Below, piece after piece: positions 10,747-61,453 of a DNA stretch of 64,000 bases. This DNA comes from Granulibacter bethesdensis. GTDB taxonomy: Bacteria; Pseudomonadota; Alphaproteobacteria; Acetobacterales; Acetobacteraceae. Numbering within the stretch: position 1 is the stretch's first letter; every line of letters begins with the position of its first letter. Under the pieces are notes generated by a model that saw only the letters and a program-made list of their open reading frames with translations, was not told the DNA's origin and ran no database searches. Location of the stretch: NCBI RefSeq assembly GCF_001889525.1, contig NZ_CP018192.1, positions 1,090,501 through 1,154,500 of the forward strand, read 5' to 3'. The position numbers and the translations under genes are program-made.

Positions 10747-11131
10747 GGGCAAAGACGGCGCGGGCTGTTGCCAGACCATTCATGGCGGCTGGAAAACCTG
10801 CATAGACAGCGATCTGCATAATGATCTCGATGATTTCCTGCCGTGTCAGCCCGATATGCAGCCCGGCGGCAATATGGGCGTCCAACTGGGGCAGCGCATT
10901 GCCCATCGCTGCCAGGGCGGAAATCGTGGCTATCTGGCGTGACCGCAGGTCGAGGGCTGGGCGGTCGTAAATATCGGCGAATGGAAATTCGTAGATCATG
11001 CGGGCGAAGTCGGGCGCGAATGTACCAAGCCCGTCGACGATATCCAGGCCGTGCTGCCCATGCAGGGTGTGCAGCATTTTTCGCCCGCGCTGGTAACGCT
11101 GTTCTTTGTCGTCCTGATGAGTCATGGCCAT
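10721..11131 (-). CDS. Carboxymuconolactone decarboxylase family protein
   Basis: This small all-helical protein of the CMD/AhpD-like fold has about 136 residues. The family core is DRPALDLRSRQIATISALAA followed by LDAHIAAGLHIGLTRQEIIE and MQIAVYAGFPAAMNGL. There is no CxxC, so it is closer to PcaC-like gamma-carboxymuconolactone decarboxylases than to AhpD peroxidases. No protocatechuate-pathway neighbours are present, so the substrate is unknown. The frame is open upstream to 11302; ATG 11131 (AGGG four bases upstream) or ATG 11125 (AGGG ten bases upstream) fits the family length. The 3' end carries a 16-bp duplication. Confidence 0.8.
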   Translation of the reverse strand: MAMTHQDDKEQRYQRGRKMLHTLHGQHGLDIVDGLGTFAPDFARMIYEFPFADIYDRPALDLRSRQIATISALAAMGNALPQLDAHIAAGLHIGLTRQEIIEIIMQIAVYAGFPAAMNGLATARAVFARLDEEAAG

Positions 11132-11178
11132 CAATCCCTGTGCATCTGAAATATGGTGCAGCATGAAGCTGTATAACG

Positions 11179-11208
11179 AAAAAAGGGAGCCTTCCGGCTC
11201 CCTTTTCC
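11179..11208 (-). terminator. Rho-independent terminator of glnA
   Basis: A perfect stem GGGAGCC-TTCC-GGCTCCC (11185-11202) is bordered by an A tract on the left and TTTT on the right. Read on the minus strand it ends in six T residues, 25 bases after the glnA stop. Confidence 0.88.
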
Positions 11209-11232
11209 CGTTTGTTTCAATCGCGTGAGCGA

Positions 11233-12663
11233 TCAGGCGGAGTAGTACATCTCGAACTCGACCGGGTGCGGCGTGTGTTCGAAGCGGTACACTTCCTTCC
11301 ACTTCAGTTCGATATAGCTCTCGATCTGATCCTTGGAGAACACATCGCCCTGCAGCAGGAATTCGTGATCGGCTTCCAGAGCCTGCAGCGCTTCACGCAG
11401 CGAGCCGCAGACGGTCGGGATGTCTTTCAGTTCTTCCGGCGGCAGATCGTACAGATCCTTGTCCATCGGGTCGCCCGGATGGATCTTGTTCTTGATGCCG
11501 TCCATGCCCGCCATCAGCAGCGCGGAGTAGGCGAGGTAGGGGTTGGCGACCGGATCCGGGAACCGGACTTCGACACGCTTCGCCTTCGGGCTGGTGGTGT
11601 AAGGAATACGGCAGGAGGCCGAGCGGTTGCGGGACGAATAAGCCAGCAGCACCGGAGCCTCGAAACCTGGAATCAGGCGCTTGTAGCTGTTCGTCGACGG
11701 GTTGGTGAAAGCATTGCATGCCTTGGCATGCTTGATGATGCCGCCGATGAAGTACAGACATAGCTCGGACAGGTCGGCATAGCCATTGCCGGCGAAGAGC
11801 GGTTTGCCCGCTTTCCACAGCGAGAGGTGGGTGTGCATCCCGGAACCGTTATCGCCATAGATCGGCTTCGGCATGAAGGTTGCCGTCTTGCCGTAGCTGT
11901 GGGCGGTGTTGTGTACGCAGTATTTGTAGATCTGCATGTCGTCGGCCATGCGGGTCAGCGTGTTGAACTTGGTGCCAAGCTCATGCTGGGACTGCGCCAC
12001 TTCGTGGTGGTGCTTTTCGATGACCAGACCCATTTCGCCCATGGCGGACAGCATTTCGGCGCGCAGATCGCTTTCGCCATCGACCGGCGGAACCGGGAAG
12101 TAACCGCCCTTGACGCCCGGACGGTGGCCCATATTACCTTCCGGATAGTCTTTCATGCTGGAGCCGGGGCCTTCGACGCTGTCCAGCTGGAAGGTGCCGA
12201 AATTGCCACCCGTGCCGAAACGCACGCTGTCGAAGATAAAGAATTCGGCTTCCGCACCGATGGAGACCGTGTCGGCCACGCCGGAGGTACGGACATATTG
12301 CTCGGCCAGTTTCGCGGTGGCGCGCGGGTCACGGGCATAGAACTGACCGGTGCTCGGCTCGATGATGTCGCAGAACAGGATCAGGGACGGCTTGGCCGCG
12401 AACGGGTCCATGACGGCTGTTTCCGGGTCCGGCATCAGCACCATGTCGCTTTCATTGATGGCTTTCCAGCCGGCAATGGAGGAGCCGTCGAACATGAAAC
12501 CGTCGCGGAACGAATCTTCGTTCACGGTGGAAATATGCTGAGCGGTGTGCTGCCATTTGCCGCGGGGATCGGTGAAGCGCAGGTCGACATATTCGACCGC
12601 GTTTTCCCTGATCATGTCCATCACGCGAGAGACGCTGTCCGGCGTCGAGTCTTTTTCCGACAT
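11233..12663 (-). CDS. glnA: Glutamine synthetase type I
   Basis: This 476-residue GSI enzyme makes glutamine from glutamate, ammonia and ATP, acting as a dodecamer in the cytoplasm. Recognisable are DPRGKWQH, the FDGSSIAGW loop, the metal-site region [12 protein letters not shown], the ATP region [14 protein letters not shown] and the glutamate-site segment NRSASCRIP. The adenylylation tyrosine is in [10 protein letters not shown], so control by a GlnE-type adenylyltransferase is expected. It lies downstream of glnB on the same strand (181-base gap), the classical alphaproteobacterial glnBA unit. GAGGA lies just upstream of ATG 12663. Confidence 0.97.
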
Positions 12664-18528: not shown

Positions 18529-18552
18529 TGTGTGGTATCATGATACCACACA
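18529..18552. promoter_or_regulatory. Perfect 24-bp palindrome, candidate operator at SDR/rplM divergent start
   Basis: The half-site TGTGTGGTATCA (18529-18540) is followed at once by its exact reverse complement (18541-18552). It covers or touches the SDR start codon and ends ten bases before the -35 box of the rplM promoter. The size and symmetry suit a dimeric GntR-, TetR- or XRE-type regulator; no regulator gene is adjacent. Confidence 0.6.
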
Positions 18553-19117: not shown

Positions 19118-19618
19118 ATGTCCGATACACAGACCCGTACCCTGGCCGATCTGAAGGATCTCGCGGTCTCACAGGGTTCAACCGTTTCCGGTGAAGTCCC
19201 CGCTGCTTCCCGTGAGCCGAAGCGTGATGCACAGGGCCGTTCCTATGGCACTGGCCGCCGCAAGGATGCCGTTGCCCGCGTCTGGGTGAAGCCCGGCAAG
19301 GGCGACATTCAGGTCAATGGCAAGAAGGTCGGCACCTATTTTGCGCGCCCCGTGCTGCGCATGCTGATCACCCAGCCTTTCCTGGTCACTGATCGCTATA
19401 ACCAGTTCGACGTGTACTGCACGGTGACTGGCGGCGGTCTGTCCGGTCAGGCCGGTGCCGTCCGCCATGGCATCAGCCGCGCTCTGGTCAATTATGAGCC
19501 GGAACTGCGCAGCGTCCTCAAGGTTGCCGGCTTCCTGACCCGCGATCCGCGCGTCGTTGAACGTAAGAAATACGGTAAGGCCAAGGCCCGTCGTAGCTTC
19601 CAGTTCAGCAAGCGCTGA
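19118..19618 (+). CDS. rpsI: 30S ribosomal protein S9
   Basis: S9 sits in the head of the small subunit, and its basic C-terminal tail reaches the P-site tRNA. The conserved core begins at [14 protein letters not shown], followed by [15 protein letters not shown] and [17 protein letters not shown], and ends with FQFSKR. The 166-residue product carries an N-terminal extension of about 40 residues before the core, common in alphaproteobacteria. A hairpin terminator follows 19 bases after the stop. Confidence 0.98.
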
Positions 19619-19636
19619 GTTCCACTGGTTGGTGGG

Positions 19637-19670
19637 AAAAGGGCCGGGCAGCAATGTCCGGCCTTTTCTT
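19637..19670 (+). terminator. Rho-independent terminator of rplM-rpsI
   Basis: AAAAGGGCCGGGCA and TGTCCGGCCTTTT pair with one bulged G around loop GCAA, and the stem runs into TTTTCTTT. It lies directly after rpsI and separates it from argC. Confidence 0.88.
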
Positions 19671-19738
19671 TATCCCGCCTCTTTTCTTTGCGGGGCGGGT
19701 GCCTATCCTGCAGCGGCGGATGGAAGGGCATGATCGAG

Positions 19739-20650
19739 ATGACGCACAGCATTTTTATCGACGGCGAAAGTGGCACTACCGGTCTCGGCATCCGCGAAAG
19801 GCTGGGCGATCTGCCTGGCGTCTCCTTGCGCAGTCTGCCCGCAGAGCATCGTAAAGATCCGGAGGCCAAGCGCGCTATTCTGGCTGACGTCGATCTTGCC
19901 ATCCTGTGCCTGCCTGATGACGCGGCGAAGGAAACTGTCGCGCTGGCGGATTCTCTTGGAGGAAACGCCCCCAAACTGCTGGATGCCAGCACGGCTCATC
20001 GTGTGGCGGAGGGCTGGATATACGGTTTTGCCGAATTACAAGCCGATCAGGCAGCGCAGATCCGCAATGCCGGAAAAGTCGCCAATGTCGGCTGTTACGC
20101 CGTCGGCAGCATTTCCCTGCTGCGTCCGCTGATCGATGCCGGGCTGATTGCGCCGGATCAGCCGCTCAGCATCAATGCGATCAGCGGTTATAGCGGCGGC
20201 GGCAAAAATATGATTGAGGCGCATGAGAAGGAGGGCGGTCCCGCTTTCGAGCTGTATGCGCTGGGGCTGGAGCATAAGCATTTGCCGGAGATCATGGCTT
20301 ATGCAGGGCTGACAAGGCGGCCGATTTTCGTGCCTTCTGTTGGGCATTTTCCGCAGGGTATGCTGGTTTCCGTGCCGCTCCATCTTGATGATCTGCCGGG
20401 ACGGCCCTCAGCGAGCGATCTGGAAGCCGCCTTGCGTACCCATTACAGTGCGGCGAGGCAGGTTCGGGTCATGGACACTGTATCGACCCTGCGCGCAGAA
20501 GATGCATCCCGCTCGGATCATCTGGAACTGCGCGTTTTTGGCAATGAAAGCAGGCGTCAGGCCGTGCTGGTGGCGAAGTTGGATAATCTGGGCAAAGGTG
20601 CCTCAGGTTCGGCGATCCAGAATGCACGCCTGATGCTGGGGCTGGAGTAG
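19739..20650 (+). CDS. argC: N-acetyl-gamma-glutamyl-phosphate reductase, type 2
   Basis: ArgC reduces N-acetylglutamyl phosphate to the semialdehyde with NADPH, the third step of arginine synthesis. The product has about 303 residues of the short type 2 form: [17 protein letters not shown] (dinucleotide site), the catalytic-cysteine segment [16 protein letters not shown], and the histidine segment [18 protein letters not shown] 19739 gives the usual N-terminus; ATG 19730 is also possible, and a GGAAGG lies at 19722-19727. The rpsI-argC neighbourhood is common in alphaproteobacteria. Confidence 0.93.
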
Positions 20651-26466: not shown

Positions 26467-28272
26467 TTATTCCCCGTACGGAATCCCATCCCGCCGCGGA
26501 TCGGCCGCTCCTGTCAGATGCCCGTCTGCTTTTTTGATAATCATGGAGAGACCTGAATTGAGCCTTATGATCGCAGGATGATGACCATACTGGAGCAGGC
26601 GATCAGCCAATAAGGCGGCTTCAGTCCCTGCTTCCAGATCGGCTTTCAGACCTGTTGTGCCGATGTGGGGAGCCGAGACGGCCTGGGCAGGAGACAGGTT
26701 CCATCGCATGGACAGTAGCATGGCCTGACTGACATAGCTGATAATGTGGCCACCTCCGGGCGATCCGGCAATCATGTCGAGCTTTCCATTCTGATCCAGG
26801 ACAATGATTGGTGCCATGCTGCTGCGTGGTCTTTTGCCCGGCTGAACCCGGTTGGCAACAGCCTTACCTGCCTCTTCAGGCAAAAATGCGAAATCGGTCA
26901 GCTCATCGTTCAGGATAAATCCATCGACCAGAAGCTTGGAGCCAAATGCGTCCTGCACCGTGGTCGTCATGGACACTGCATTGCCATGCGAATCCACGAT
27001 GCTGATATGACTGGTGCCGTGCTCCGGTTTTGGTGGTTGTGCCCCCTGTGCAGGGGGCAGTTCGGGCATGGACCAGGATGGGTTACCGGCCTCTACTGTG
27101 GAGGTCGCATGGCGGGGATGAATCATTCTGGCTCTTTGCCGAAGATAGGCCGGGTCGAGAAGACCGCGGAGCGGTATCTTTACGAAATCAGGATCAGCCA
27201 GAAACAGGTTGCGATCTGCAAAGGCCAGGTGTTCGGCCTGAATGATCAGATCGGCCGCTTCGGCGCTGTCGGGGCGCAGATGCCGCAGATCGAAACCCTC
27301 CAGCATGGAGAGTATCTGCAAGACGGCGACGCCTCCGGAGGAAGGCGGTCCCATGCTGCACACTGTCCGCATTTTGACAGGCATGCACAGGGCCGGGCGC
27401 TGACGGGGTTGATAGGAGGCCAGATCATCCATCGTCATGGTCCCGGAGGCCGGGCTTCGCCGGATCGCTGCCACAATGTCGGTGGCGATCCGACCGGTCA
27501 GCAAGGCATCTGCCCCTTTCTCGGCAACGCTCCGCATCGTTTCTGCCAGAGGGGGATTTTTTAATATGTAGCCCGGCTCAGGAACTGAGCCATTGGGCAG
27601 GAAATAAGTCCTTGCGGCTTCCTGTACCATCAAGTTGCTCTGTTCTTCCCGGATTTCCCGGCTCATCAGCGCAGAAACCGGAAAACCGTTTTCCGCCTGG
27701 GTGATGGTGCTGGTAAACAAGTCCTTCCAGAGCAGATGCCCATGCAGCCTGTGCGCAGCTTCGAGCATTCTCAGCGCACCGGGCACTCCGACGGCGCGCC
27801 CTCCGATTCCGGCGCTGTCCAGCGGGAGTGGTCTGCCGGTCGCATCCTGAAAAATGGTGGGGGGGATGGCGGCAGGGGCGGTCTCCCGTCCATCCCAGCT
27901 GGTAACCTGCCGGGTGGCCGCATCATAGTACAGCAGGAAGGCGCCTCCACCCAGACCGGAAGACTGAGGCTCCACCAGTGACAACATCGCCTGTGCGGTA
28001 ACCGCGGCATCAATGGCATTCCCCCCTGCTTTCAGCACATCCAGTGCTGCCCGGCTGGCGAACGGGTTGGCCGTTACCACCATCATATGGGCGGCGGTTA
28101 CATCCTGGGCCAGCGTAGGAAACGGATGAGGGGTGGAGGGCCGATGTGCGGGTGTCTCGGCGGCGAGGGAAAAAGGCATTATGACAGTCGCACAGAACGC
28201 GAGCCGTGCCAGGCTTCGTTTTGTGAAAAACAGCCTGTCCCATGCTTGCCGCAGTTTCCGTGTGACTGTCAT
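26467..28272 (-). CDS. ggt: Gamma-glutamyltranspeptidase precursor
   Basis: This 601-residue Ntn-hydrolase cleaves the gamma-glutamyl bond of glutathione in the periplasm. A signal peptide covers about the first 38 residues (basic start, then ARLAFCATVIMPFSLAAE). The self-cleavage site and new N-terminal threonine are in PEHGTSHISIVDSHGNAV, and the substrate loops GGGAFLLYYD, PGALRMLE and AGSPGGGHIISYVSQAM are present. Processing should give large and small subunits. The start is only 15 bases from the start of yraN on the other strand. A weak AT-rich hairpin lies just after the stop (26448-26464). Confidence 0.95.
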   Translation of the reverse strand: MTVTRKLRQAWDRLFFTKRSLARLAFCATVIMPFSLAAETPAHRPSTPHPFPTLAQDVTAAHMMVVTANPFASRAALDVLKAGGNAIDAAVTAQAMLSLVEPQSSGLGGGAFLLYYDAATRQVTSWDGRETAPAAIPPTIFQDATGRPLPLDSAGIGGRAVGVPGALRMLEAAHRLHGHLLWKDLFTSTITQAENGFPVSALMSREIREEQSNLMVQEAARTYFLPNGSVPEPGYILKNPPLAETMRSVAEKGADALLTGRIATDIVAAIRRSPASGTMTMDDLASYQPRQRPALCMPVKMRTVCSMGPPSSGGVAVLQILSMLEGFDLRHLRPDSAEAADLIIQAEHLAFADRNLFLADPDFVKIPLRGLLDPAYLRQRARMIHPRHATSTVEAGNPSWSMPELPPAQGAQPPKPEHGTSHISIVDSHGNAVSMTTTVQDAFGSKLLVDGFILNDELTDFAFLPEEAGKAVANRVQPGKRPRSSMAPIIVLDQNGKLDMIAGSPGGGHIISYVSQAMLLSMRWNLSPAQAVSAPHIGTTGLKADLEAGTEAALLADRLLQYGHHPAIIRLNSGLSMIIKKADGHLTGAADPRRDGIPYGE

Positions 28273-28287
28273 GATCGAGCATTGCCA

Positions 28288-32892: not shown

Positions 32893-33852
32893 ATGACCGA
32901 ATTTCCGCCTCGTCTGATTGGCGATATCGGGGGCACGAATGTCCGTTTCGCCCTGGCGATGGGGGACGGCGTTATTGTGCATGAACACAAGCTGCCTGTC
33001 GCGGAATTTGACAGTCTGGAACTGGCGGCCAGAACCTATTTGCAGGCGCGTGGTTCCCTCAGTCAGAAGGTGGAGGAAGCGGTTTTCGCCGTTGCGACAC
33101 CGGTGAAGGGCGATGAAATCGCCTTTACCAACAATCCCTGGCGTTTCTCGATTCGTTCAACTGAAGCGGCTCTGGGGCTGAAGAAGCTGGAAATCATTAA
33201 TGATTTCGTAGCTCAGGCGGCCTCCATCCGGGTAACGCCTGATGAGGAAATGACGATCATCAAATCAGGCCAGGTCATGGATCATCATCCCGCAGTGGTG
33301 ATTGGGCCGGGGACCGGTCTCGGTATGGCCTTCATCCTGCGCCGCAAGGATGGAGAAGAGATTTTAGCCAGTGAAGGCGGCCACTGCACCTTCAGCCCGC
33401 GTGATGAAATCCAGACCTTCATTCGCGATCAACTGGCGCGCGAATACGGCCATGTCTCGTCGGAGCGGCTGCTGTCCGGTCCGGGGTTGCTGGCTATGGC
33501 CAGAGCACTGGCGCAGCGTGCAGGAATTTCTCTGACGCTTGGAAAACCGGCTGATGTCACAAGGTTGGCCGAGCAGGAAGCCTGTCCTGTCTGCCGGGAA
33601 GCAATCAATGTTTTTTCTGCCGTGCTCGGCTCGGTGGCCGCGGATGCGGTGCTGAATTTAGTGGCTATTGGCGGGGTGTATCTGATTGGAAATGTCAGCA
33701 AAAGTCTGCGCGCTATGATGGATTTCGATGCGCTGATTGAGGCGTTTCTGGAAAAAGGACGGTTTCGTGCCCTGCTGGACGATGTACCGATCATGCAGGT
33801 GATGCGCTCCAACACAGGCCTTCTGGGGGCGTCGGCCTGGCGCGGGCGTTGA
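32893..33852 (+). CDS. glk: Glucokinase
   Basis: This 319-residue bacterial glucokinase of the Glk family (ATP-dependent, not ROK) phosphorylates glucose in the cytoplasm. The phosphate-1 site is LIGDIGGTNVRFALA, the glucose region is FTNNPWRFS with the catalytic Asp in IINDFVAQA, GPGTGLGMAF is the next phosphate loop, and the glucose-binding glutamate region is SEGGHCTFSPRDE. The frame is open upstream, but ATG 32893 gives the family N-terminus with AGGA about 12 bases upstream. It is monocistronic and divergent from the FrnE-like gene. Confidence 0.95.
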   Translation: MTEFPPRLIGDIGGTNVRFALAMGDGVIVHEHKLPVAEFDSLELAARTYLQARGSLSQKVEEAVFAVATPVKGDEIAFTNNPWRFSIRSTEAALGLKKLEIINDFVAQAASIRVTPDEEMTIIKSGQVMDHHPAVVIGPGTGLGMAFILRRKDGEEILASEGGHCTFSPRDEIQTFIRDQLAREYGHVSSERLLSGPGLLAMARALAQRAGISLTLGKPADVTRLAEQEACPVCREAINVFSAVLGSVAADAVLNLVAIGGVYLIGNVSKSLRAMMDFDALIEAFLEKGRFRALLDDVPIMQVMRSNTGLLGASAWRGR

Positions 33853-34012
33853 AATCACAGACTCGTTTCAGATGGAGTCGAGGCGCTGGGTAATTTTATT
33901 GCGTGTTATTGGGTCAGGACGAATGTCCCATGCGGAAACTCAATAATAAATGAAACGCAATGCATGCATGAATTTTTGATATTGAATGCCTCTCCTAAAT
34001 AGTCTCATGCTC

Positions 34013-34117
34013 CCCCTGTCGCTTCGTCCCGACCAGTGACGGAACAGGGGAAGGAATATTCCTTCCCCAGTTGCCACCGGGCAAACGGATGAGGTTCCAC
34101 CAAGGGAGTGCCATCCG
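34013..34117 (+). promoter_or_regulatory. Strongly structured 5' leader, candidate cis-regulatory RNA
   Basis: Four helices can be drawn in 105 bases just before the 58-codon gene. A: CCCCTGT (34013-34019) with ACAGGGG (34044-34050), extended by TTCGTC/GACGGA around a 9-base loop. B: a perfect 22-bp palindrome, GGGGAAGGAAT and its complement (34047-34068), which shares GGGG with helix A, so the two exclude each other. C: TTGCC-ACCG-GGCAA (34071-34084). D: CGGATG (34086-34091) with CATCCG (34112-34117), enclosing the ribosome site AGGGAG and ending at the start codon. I do not recognise a known riboswitch class. A DNA-level operator at B is the alternative. Confidence 0.55.
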
Positions 34118-34294
34118 ATGGCCATGCAGCTTTCTTCTTACGCTTCCGGTTTTATGCACACCCCCGTGCGCAGCAGTGTGACAGCGTCTTCTCCGGAACA
34201 GAAAGACGCGCTGAAGCAAGCTTTGCTGTTTGTTTTTGCAATTCAGACGCCGATATGGGCAGCTCTCTATTTGCTGTTCAGCGCTGGGTTATAA
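34118..34294 (+). CDS. Small membrane protein, 58 residues
   Basis: ATG 34118 is preceded by AGGGAG nine bases upstream, an excellent ribosome site. The product begins MAMQLSSYASGFMHTPVRSS, has a polar middle (SPEQKDALKQ) and ends in one probable membrane helix, LLFVFAIQTPIWAALYLLFS, followed by AGL and the stop at 34292-34294. I do not recognise the family. It lies alone between glk and the converging NiCoT gene, after a 265-base non-coding stretch whose last 105 bases form the structured leader. The strong ribosome site, good hydrophobic segment and conspicuous leader argue that it is real. Confidence 0.6.
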   Translation: MAMQLSSYASGFMHTPVRSSVTASSPEQKDALKQALLFVFAIQTPIWAALYLLFSAGL

Positions 34295-34336
34295 GAGAGA
34301 GGAAGACTTATCTTCTCCCCTCTTCCACCAGAACTT

Positions 34337-35419
34337 CTAGTTGCTTGGCGATCTTTCCTGCCTATGGGCAGAGTTATCGAGGTCGACAAGGCGGTAGGCC
34401 AGCGCAGAAAGAAGCCAGATCACAATAAAGACGCCAACGATGAGAAAGCCGAAATCGGCCAGATCATCGTTCAGGGATGCAATGTCTTGCCAGATTGGCC
34501 CGCGGAGATGCAGGTGCTCGCCGATCAGGCTGAGTGCTTCAACCGATCCTATGAGCAGCGCCACCGTGATGGATATGGCTGTCATGGTAATATTGTACCA
34601 TAGTTTCCGTTGCGGATTGCTGAAAGCCCATCCGTAAGCACCAGCCATCAAGCTGCTGTCGAGCGTATCGACCAGTGTCATTGCGGCGGTAAACAGGGCT
34701 GGAAAGATCATAATTTCCCACGCCGGGATACCTCCTGCATGCTGCGTGGCGGTGATGCCGAGCAGCCCGATTTCGGTGGCAGTATCAAAACCCAGCCCGA
34801 ACAGCACTCCCAACGGATAGAGGTGCCATGGTTGGCTGATGCGCTCGAACACCGGACGGCAGAGACGGCTCAGAAGACCGCTTTTGTCCAGCGCGTCATG
34901 CAATGCGGCCTGACTCATTGTTTGCTGGCGAGCGCTACAAAACTGCTGCCACAATGTGCGCAGGATCATCAGATTGGCAACGGCAATACACAGCAGAAAC
35001 ACGGCGGAGGTCAGTGTGCCGACAGTGCCGCCGAAAAAGCGAATATTCTCCAGCAAAGTCTGAAATTGTTGTGCCGAGACTGCAATCAGCGCACAGGCCA
35101 GCACCACAATGGTGGAGTGCCCGAGCGAGAACCATAATCCAGTGCGGTGAGGCTGAATGCCCGCCTGCATCAGACGGCGTACGGTATTGTCGATGGCGGC
35201 AATATGATCGGCATCCAGCGCATGCCGCAGCCCGAAAATCCAGGCTAGCAACGCTGTTCCCAGCAGCATCGGTGTGTCGGCAAAAGCCTGCCAGGCGATC
35301 AGCCAGACCAACCCGTTCACAGCGATCAAAGCGGTATGGAGCAGGAGAATGCTGCGCGGGATGGTACGAGGATGAAGAAAGAATGGCGGCATGGGGTCAT
35401 GCAATGATCCCGCCGCCAT
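34337..35419 (-). CDS. NiCoT-family nickel/cobalt transporter
   Basis: This high-affinity Ni2+/Co2+ permease of the HoxN/NixA type has about 360 residues and eight predicted membrane helices. The signature in helix II is RHALDADHIAAIDN (HX4DH), and LGFDTATEIGLLG is the second conserved motif. Starts at ATG 35419, TTG 35428 or ATG 35392 are possible and none has a clear ribosome site. No urease, hydrogenase or cobalamin gene is in the window, so the metal it serves is not known. It converges with the 58-residue membrane protein, whose leader therefore does not control it. Confidence 0.88.
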   Translation of the reverse strand: MAAGSLHDPMPPFFLHPRTIPRSILLLHTALIAVNGLVWLIAWQAFADTPMLLGTALLAWIFGLRHALDADHIAAIDNTVRRLMQAGIQPHRTGLWFSLGHSTIVVLACALIAVSAQQFQTLLENIRFFGGTVGTLTSAVFLLCIAVANLMILRTLWQQFCSARQQTMSQAALHDALDKSGLLSRLCRPVFERISQPWHLYPLGVLFGLGFDTATEIGLLGITATQHAGGIPAWEIMIFPALFTAAMTLVDTLDSSLMAGAYGWAFSNPQRKLWYNITMTAISITVALLIGSVEALSLIGEHLHLRGPIWQDIASLNDDLADFGFLIVGVFIVIWLLSALAYRLVDLDNSAHRQERSPSN

Positions 35420-35452
35420 TTTTGTCAACTATGGATGCAGAAAAGGTGCGCC

Positions 35453-61311: not shown

Positions 61312-61328
61312 GGGATGCGATATTCCTT

Positions 61329-61398
61329 AAAAAAAACGCCGCCCCATTCCCCGGGCTGCGGGAGAATCGACCCGCAGGCTCAGGGAGTAGGACGGCGT
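61329..61398 (-). terminator. Branched terminator-like structure between glyA and nrdR
   Basis: On the minus strand ACGCCGTCC (from 61398) pairs with GGGGCGGCGT. Inside lies a second perfect helix CTGCGGG/CCCGCAG with an 8-base loop, and eight T residues follow. The outer stem plus T tract gives a good terminator for glyA. The nrdR ribosome site begins immediately afterwards, so readthrough control of the nrdR-rib operon is conceivable. Confidence 0.75.
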
Positions 61399-61429
61399 GT
61401 AATCTATCGCACCCTGCCGTATCGATCAC

Positions 61430-61453
61430 CTGCCTCCGTCATGACGGAGGCAG
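61430..61453. other. Perfect 24-bp palindrome after glyA
   Basis: CTGCCTCCGTCA is followed by its exact reverse complement, 33 bases after the glyA stop. It has no T tract. It may act as a 3'-end stabiliser before the terminator or as a pause hairpin. Confidence 0.6.

Follow-up and report, generated by a model that had tools for sequence, protein, structure and literature searches.

A structured leader with candidate competing helices, upstream of a small-protein gene confined to one genus, in Granulibacter bethesdensis

Does the DNA ahead of a 58-codon gene in Granulibacter bethesdensis specify a leader RNA that affects expression of that gene, or does it simply fold well? We addressed this question in a 64,000-nucleotide stretch (the window) of the 2.69-Mb, single-contig genome, comparing three genomes of one genus: the window's own (G000) and two relatives (G157 and G100).

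The small-protein gene and its surroundings

The gene (34118–34294, plus strand, ATG at 34118) has a glucokinase gene ending at 33852 as its upstream neighbour and converges with a NicO nickel transporter gene on the minus strand (34337–35428). It is present in all three genomes of the genus, in one copy in its own genome, and the copies are 93–100% identical to that of the window. Substitutions were mainly silent (pN 0.008–0.038, pS 0.10–0.32; dN/dS 0.08–0.12 across the three species). Because all three genomes carry the gene and differ in it mostly at silent sites, the pattern of substitution indicates that it is real and under purifying selection. The 58-aa product is probably membrane-bound, with a hydrophobic C-terminal segment at residues 36–54 (mean hydropathy 2.0) that is the sole such segment, and it matched no Pfam, NCBIfam, PHROGs or PADLOC family at E up to 1.

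All matches to the protein that we accept lie within the genus. A single-sequence search (E up to 0.01) of 397 family genomes matched only the three genus members, and a profile search (E up to 0.05) returned 19 of the 397, of which three were again the genus and the other 16 had a best E of 0.006. Ten of these 16 loci were inspected by eye and none was judged a relative, while the remaining six lie in frames of 140–654 aa. Across the class, the profile matched 106 of 289 genomes at E up to 1, the best match outside its own genome (E 0.006) being interrupted by internal stops; no relative was confirmed among named genome contigs and plasmids gave no match. We also used the neighbouring genes as synteny anchors, with glucokinase found in 45 of 100 family genomes (E up to 1e-20) and the nickel transporter in 40 of 100. 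Among the best 30 loci of each anchor, the small gene occurred only at the two from its own genome (other best E 0.24).

Upstream of the gene, a consensus scan found one promoter-like site, TTGATA-16-AATAGT at 33976–34003 on the plus strand, which is weak (9/12) and compares with 0.7 and 0.4 sites expected from shuffles. The G100 counterpart has G as the last base of its second hexamer, and the scan does not list it. Given the position of this weak match, the transcript would start near 34010. At the 5′ end of the leader there is also a 10-codon frame, ATG to TGA (34007–34039; MLPLSLRPDQ, or MLCLSLRPKQ in G100), with start and stop kept in all three species and no obvious ribosome site before it. 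At the other end of the locus, positions 34298–34377, which run from where the small gene stops into the 3′ end of NicO, are the most diverged 80 bases of G100 in the 3-kb locus (26 differing alignment columns, indels counted), and a minus-strand terminator-like site within them is at chance level and was not found in G157 or G100.

Helices in the leader and substitutions across three species

The leader (34008–34117, plus strand) folded more strongly than expected, with minimum free energy z-scores of −3.6 to −4.0 (−4.01 for 34013–34117 and −3.58 for 34005–34140, with 0 of 200 dinucleotide shuffles as good in either case). In searches against Rfam, only a tRNA in the window scored above the gathering score and the G157 and G100 loci had no such match, so the earlier description of a structured leader of no known class stands, while the search for a covariance-model family proposed with it yielded none. 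Folding of this strength is more than chance, yet it is not unique in the window, where 38 of 3652 segments (105 bases, both strands) reached at least the leader's strength in G+C-corrected energy. This count is in keeping with a leader without function, rich in G+C, whose strong fold is a matter of chance in a slowly evolving intergenic stretch, an explanation that we consider rather doubtful. Elsewhere in the window, segments 11131–11270, 19566–19740, 28176–28280 and 61321–61425 exceed the leader in G+C-corrected folding strength, and two perfect palindromes of 24 bp (18529–18552 and 61430–61453) are longer than the one in the leader.

The first-pass annotation drew four helices, and each of them can be found in the sequence: stem 1 (34013–34019/34044–34050 plus 34023–34028/34038–34043); a perfect 22-bp palindrome (34047–34068) that forms a hairpin with a 9-pair stem (34047–34055/34060–34068) and has GGGG (34047–34050) in common with stem 1; a tetraloop hairpin of 5 pairs (34071–34075/34080–34084); and a ribosome-site stem (34086–34091/34112–34117) that encloses AAGGGAG and abuts the ATG at 34118. 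AAGGGAG (34102–34108), invariant in the three species, is by its position the probable Shine–Dalgarno sequence. The ability to draw four helices is not the same as their coexistence or conservation, and the alignment of the three leaders, with 18 variable columns, separated them. The palindromic hairpin kept every pair, one of them being G-U in G100 and A-U in the other two species, while the tetraloop hairpin lost 2 of 5 pairs in G157 and 2 of 5 in G100 (when the same changes were placed at random, 99.88% of placements broke as few pairs or fewer), and the ribosome-site stem and stem 1 lost 1 of 6 and 1 of 13 pairs, respectively, in G100. Two further helices were unbroken in all three species, namely a local helix A of 8 pairs (34016–34023 with 34035–34042) and a long-range helix P2 of 9 pairs (34021–34029 with 34087–34095), which overlap at 34021–34023.

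The RNAalifold consensus was a single nested hairpin of 35 pairs (−45.8 kcal/mol) that combines P2 and the palindrome with an outer helix P1 (34009–34014 with 34104–34109), joining the 5′ end of the leader to the ribosome-binding stretch with one pair broken in G100, and an inner helix P3 (34036–34038/34075–34077 and 34040–34042/34071–34073), in which two pairs alternate between G-U and G-C. In six consensus pairs only one partner varies and pairing persists in some species, and three pairs are broken in some species (one in G000, two in G100). Compensatory changes upstream of orthologues in the family had been proposed as support for the helices, but no orthologue was found outside the genus, and none of the 35 pairs was altered on both sides among the three genomes. 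This count agrees with a leader without function, as does the conservation of the leader, which was not above that of the upstream DNA. Over 33850–34068, G000 and G157 differ at 1 of 219 bases, compared with 7 differences in the next 47 bases (34069–34115) and 10–15% divergence at silent positions in the small gene and the genes beside it; between G100 and G000 the divergence around the same stretch is about 8–14% per 80 bases. Such near-identity may reflect either strong constraint or recent exchange between the two genomes.

The palindrome could alternatively be a DNA operator that lies downstream of the promoter and binds a dimeric repressor. A perfect 22-bp dyad whose arms are each invariant over their outer 8 bases would suit such a site, but only one site occurs in the genome at up to 3 mismatches, and in G100 the dyad centre is asymmetric with the RNA hairpin retained, which leaves this explanation with very little probability. 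A weak DNA match to the palindrome core elsewhere in the genome lies inside a coding frame. The palindrome was also considered as the intrinsic terminator of the glucokinase gene and rejected, since the terminator scan had no match and there is no T run.

We assessed whether substitutions spare the fold by re-placing the same 18 variable columns at random and refolding (600 runs per reference for the leader). Depending on whether G000, G157 or G100 served as reference, the leader's alifold energy was equalled in 2, 44 or 1 of the 600 runs, respectively, and its structure conservation index (SCI) in 60, 104 or 16. Under the G000 reference, two upstream control stretches that overlap each other were as low in 428 of 600 and 248 of 400 runs, and a coding-region control in 193 of 400; in the upstream stretch 33853–34007 the mean single-sequence energy, unlike the consensus, was also low (9 of 400 random placements). 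No column shuffle (n = 300) was as low in energy, and the observed SCI of 0.96 was reached by 8 (shuffle mean 0.84). Helix A, the palindrome and P2 were all intact in 0.26% of 20,000 random placements and singly intact in 23%, 10% and 22%, for a set of helices picked after inspection of the data. A count of broken pairs on the RNAalifold consensus (P = 0.0002) is circular, because that consensus was derived from the same three sequences. Overall, these comparisons provide moderate evidence that the leader fold has been spared by substitutions; the test is weak with G157 as reference. That the consensus fold appears spared in the leader, and not so in its flanks, argues against a leader that folds without function.

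Competing states and access to the start region

Equilibrium predictions on growing prefixes, which describe folding order without kinetics, did not bear out the two-state switch between stem 1 and the palindrome that the first-pass annotation had proposed from their overlap. The outer half of stem 1 had probabilities of 0.96 (G000), 0.51 (G157) and 0.00 (G100) in the prefix to 34050 and of 0.89, 0.26 and 0.33 in the prefix to 34060, and fell to 0.00 in each species once the prefix reached 34070, staying there at all greater lengths, with the inner half at most 0.11. Stem 1 was thus predicted only in prefixes ending before about 34070, and forcing it cost 5.0, 13.0 and 14.5 kcal/mol in the three species. 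In the prefix to 34070, helix A had a probability of 0.98–1.00 and the palindrome of 1.00. Once 34087–34095 were included, P2 was predicted over helix A in the relatives, with probabilities of 0.71 (G157) and 0.98 (G100) at 34096, whereas G000 retained helix A (0.78 at 34096 and 0.93 at 34150, with P2 at most 0.31). P2 in G100 varied with length (0.95 at 34150, 0.55 at 34180 and 0.85 at 34294), the two states lay 1.8 (G000), 2.6 (G100) and 6.6 (G157) kcal/mol apart, and P1 had a probability of 0.07–0.18 in G000 from 34135 on. A start-codon hairpin, GCCAU-3 nt-AUGGC (34110–34122), whose two variable positions both lie in the loop, was favoured in G157 and G100 and not in G000. The favoured state differs among species and, within G100, with the length of the transcript. 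Since P2 displaces helix A in the relatives and stem 1 is gone by 34070, a two-state leader is possible in these models with helix A against P2, rather than stem 1 against the palindrome.

The palindromic hairpin was the only helix with a probability of 1.00 in all three species at each tested length that contains it, with variation in the helices around it. This would be expected if the leader were only a 5′ stability element, in which a hairpin near the 5′ end protects the mRNA from decay and nothing switches. No pair of helix A or P2 is broken either, and with G000 as reference the consensus energy of 34008–34070 alone was equalled in 36 of 600 random placements, as opposed to 2 of 600 for the whole leader, both of which weigh against this explanation and make it unlikely.

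Predicted access to the ribosome site, ranked against 49 control starts chosen according to simple rules, fell at the 45th percentile in G000, the 6th in G157 and the 24th in G100, which suggests that hiding of the site by the mRNA fold is strong in G157, moderate in G100 and ordinary in G000; the ordinary value in G000 would also be expected of a leader without function. Removing the first 8 leader bases, which include the P1 strand, changed access from 0.40 to 0.44 (G000), from 0.03 to 0.11 (G157) and from 0.25 to 0.13 (G100). Because this truncation barely alters access, P1 appears replaceable by other pairings. Between 25 and 55 °C, predicted access to the ribosome site rose from 0.34 to 0.45 in G000 and from 0.03 to 0.08 and 0.23 to 0.38 in the relatives, while predicted access to the start codon rose from 0.38 to 0.80 in G000 and at 55 °C was 0.22 and 0.24 in the relatives, where it remains closed.

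The reading that we prefer, and hold tentatively, is that the region is a cis-acting 5′ leader RNA of the genus-specific small-protein gene that affects its translation or mRNA stability. Weighing against it are the comparison of just three genomes, the lack of two-sided pair changes, the ordinary ribosome-site access in G000 and the slight effect of 5′ truncation on that access. Stem 1 is predicted to form first and to be replaced by helix A and the palindromic hairpin. When 34087–34095 are present, a long nested hairpin of P2, P3, the palindrome and partly P1 would dominate in the relatives and be a minor form in G000. In the state with P1 and P2, the 5′ end of the leader would pair with the ribosome-binding stretch, and the balance between helix A and P2 may set translation of the small protein or stability of its mRNA.

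Relatives of the leader and known systems

A covariance model of the leader (E up to 0.1) matched 7 of 249 family genomes, the three genus members strongly and four others with E of 0.005–0.08, in a search whose filters lose some weak matches. A DNA search with the leader (E up to 1) matched 56 of 100 relatives, with only brief, weak matches outside the genus (the best spanning 31 bases at E 0.003). Relaxing Rfam to E up to 10 gave ten weak matches at the leader, far below threshold and mostly to eukaryotic microRNAs and snoRNAs; a match to the bacterial sRNA CcsR1 on the minus strand scored 15.3 bits against a threshold of 65.3. The leader was absent from the titles and abstract openings listed for literature on Granulibacter transcriptomes and small RNAs, Acetobacteraceae riboswitches, and Acetobacter small membrane proteins, leaders and orphan genes.

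Riboswitches have competing helices upstream of the start codon. The leader likewise has competing helices in that position, but it matches no described class, shows none of the compensatory pairs sought in a riboswitch, and has strong matches in only 3 of 249 family genomes. As with RNA thermometers such as ROSE and fourU, a leader stem is able to hold the ribosome site, and predicted start-codon access in G000 increases with temperature; the differences are that the ribosome site is predicted to open little and the start codon of the relatives to stay closed, and that there is no Rfam match.

A further comparison is with enterobacterial timP of the type I toxin-antitoxin pair timP/TimR, which is reported to encode a small toxic membrane protein behind a leader of four stem-loops that can adopt mutually exclusive conformations and holds its ribosome site in a stem (PMC11228461). 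The candidate leader resembles timP by analogy and in manner only, with a small membrane protein, several leader stem-loops, exclusive conformations and a ribosome-site stem, while the antitoxin RNA, pseudoknot and toxicity are features of timP. If the likeness went deeper, the mRNA would encode a small membrane toxin silenced by its own leader; refolding or cleavage would open the mRNA and a small antisense RNA would block it. The 58-aa protein is short and has one hydrophobic C-terminal segment, as expected of a type I toxin, and the structured leader has a 5′ end able to pair with the ribosome site. Against this, consensus scans, which are weak evidence, found no opposite-strand promoter-like site in G000 or G157 and one in G100 behind the gene, the gene is present in a single genomic copy, and its ribosome site has ordinary access in G000 that is not freed by 5′ truncation. 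We regard a type-I-toxin-like mRNA as very improbable.

Returning to the cis-acting leader, a bolder and quite improbable version is that helix A and P2, alternating around a constant palindrome, open or close the region around the start codon of a new, genus-specific small membrane protein, which might make the locus an Acetobacteraceae module of a new, type-I-toxin-like sort. At this locus, even three close genomes can tell helices that are kept from those that can merely be drawn. If the preferred reading is true, a lineage of acetic acid bacteria would have a small protein not described before, under an RNA control of its own.
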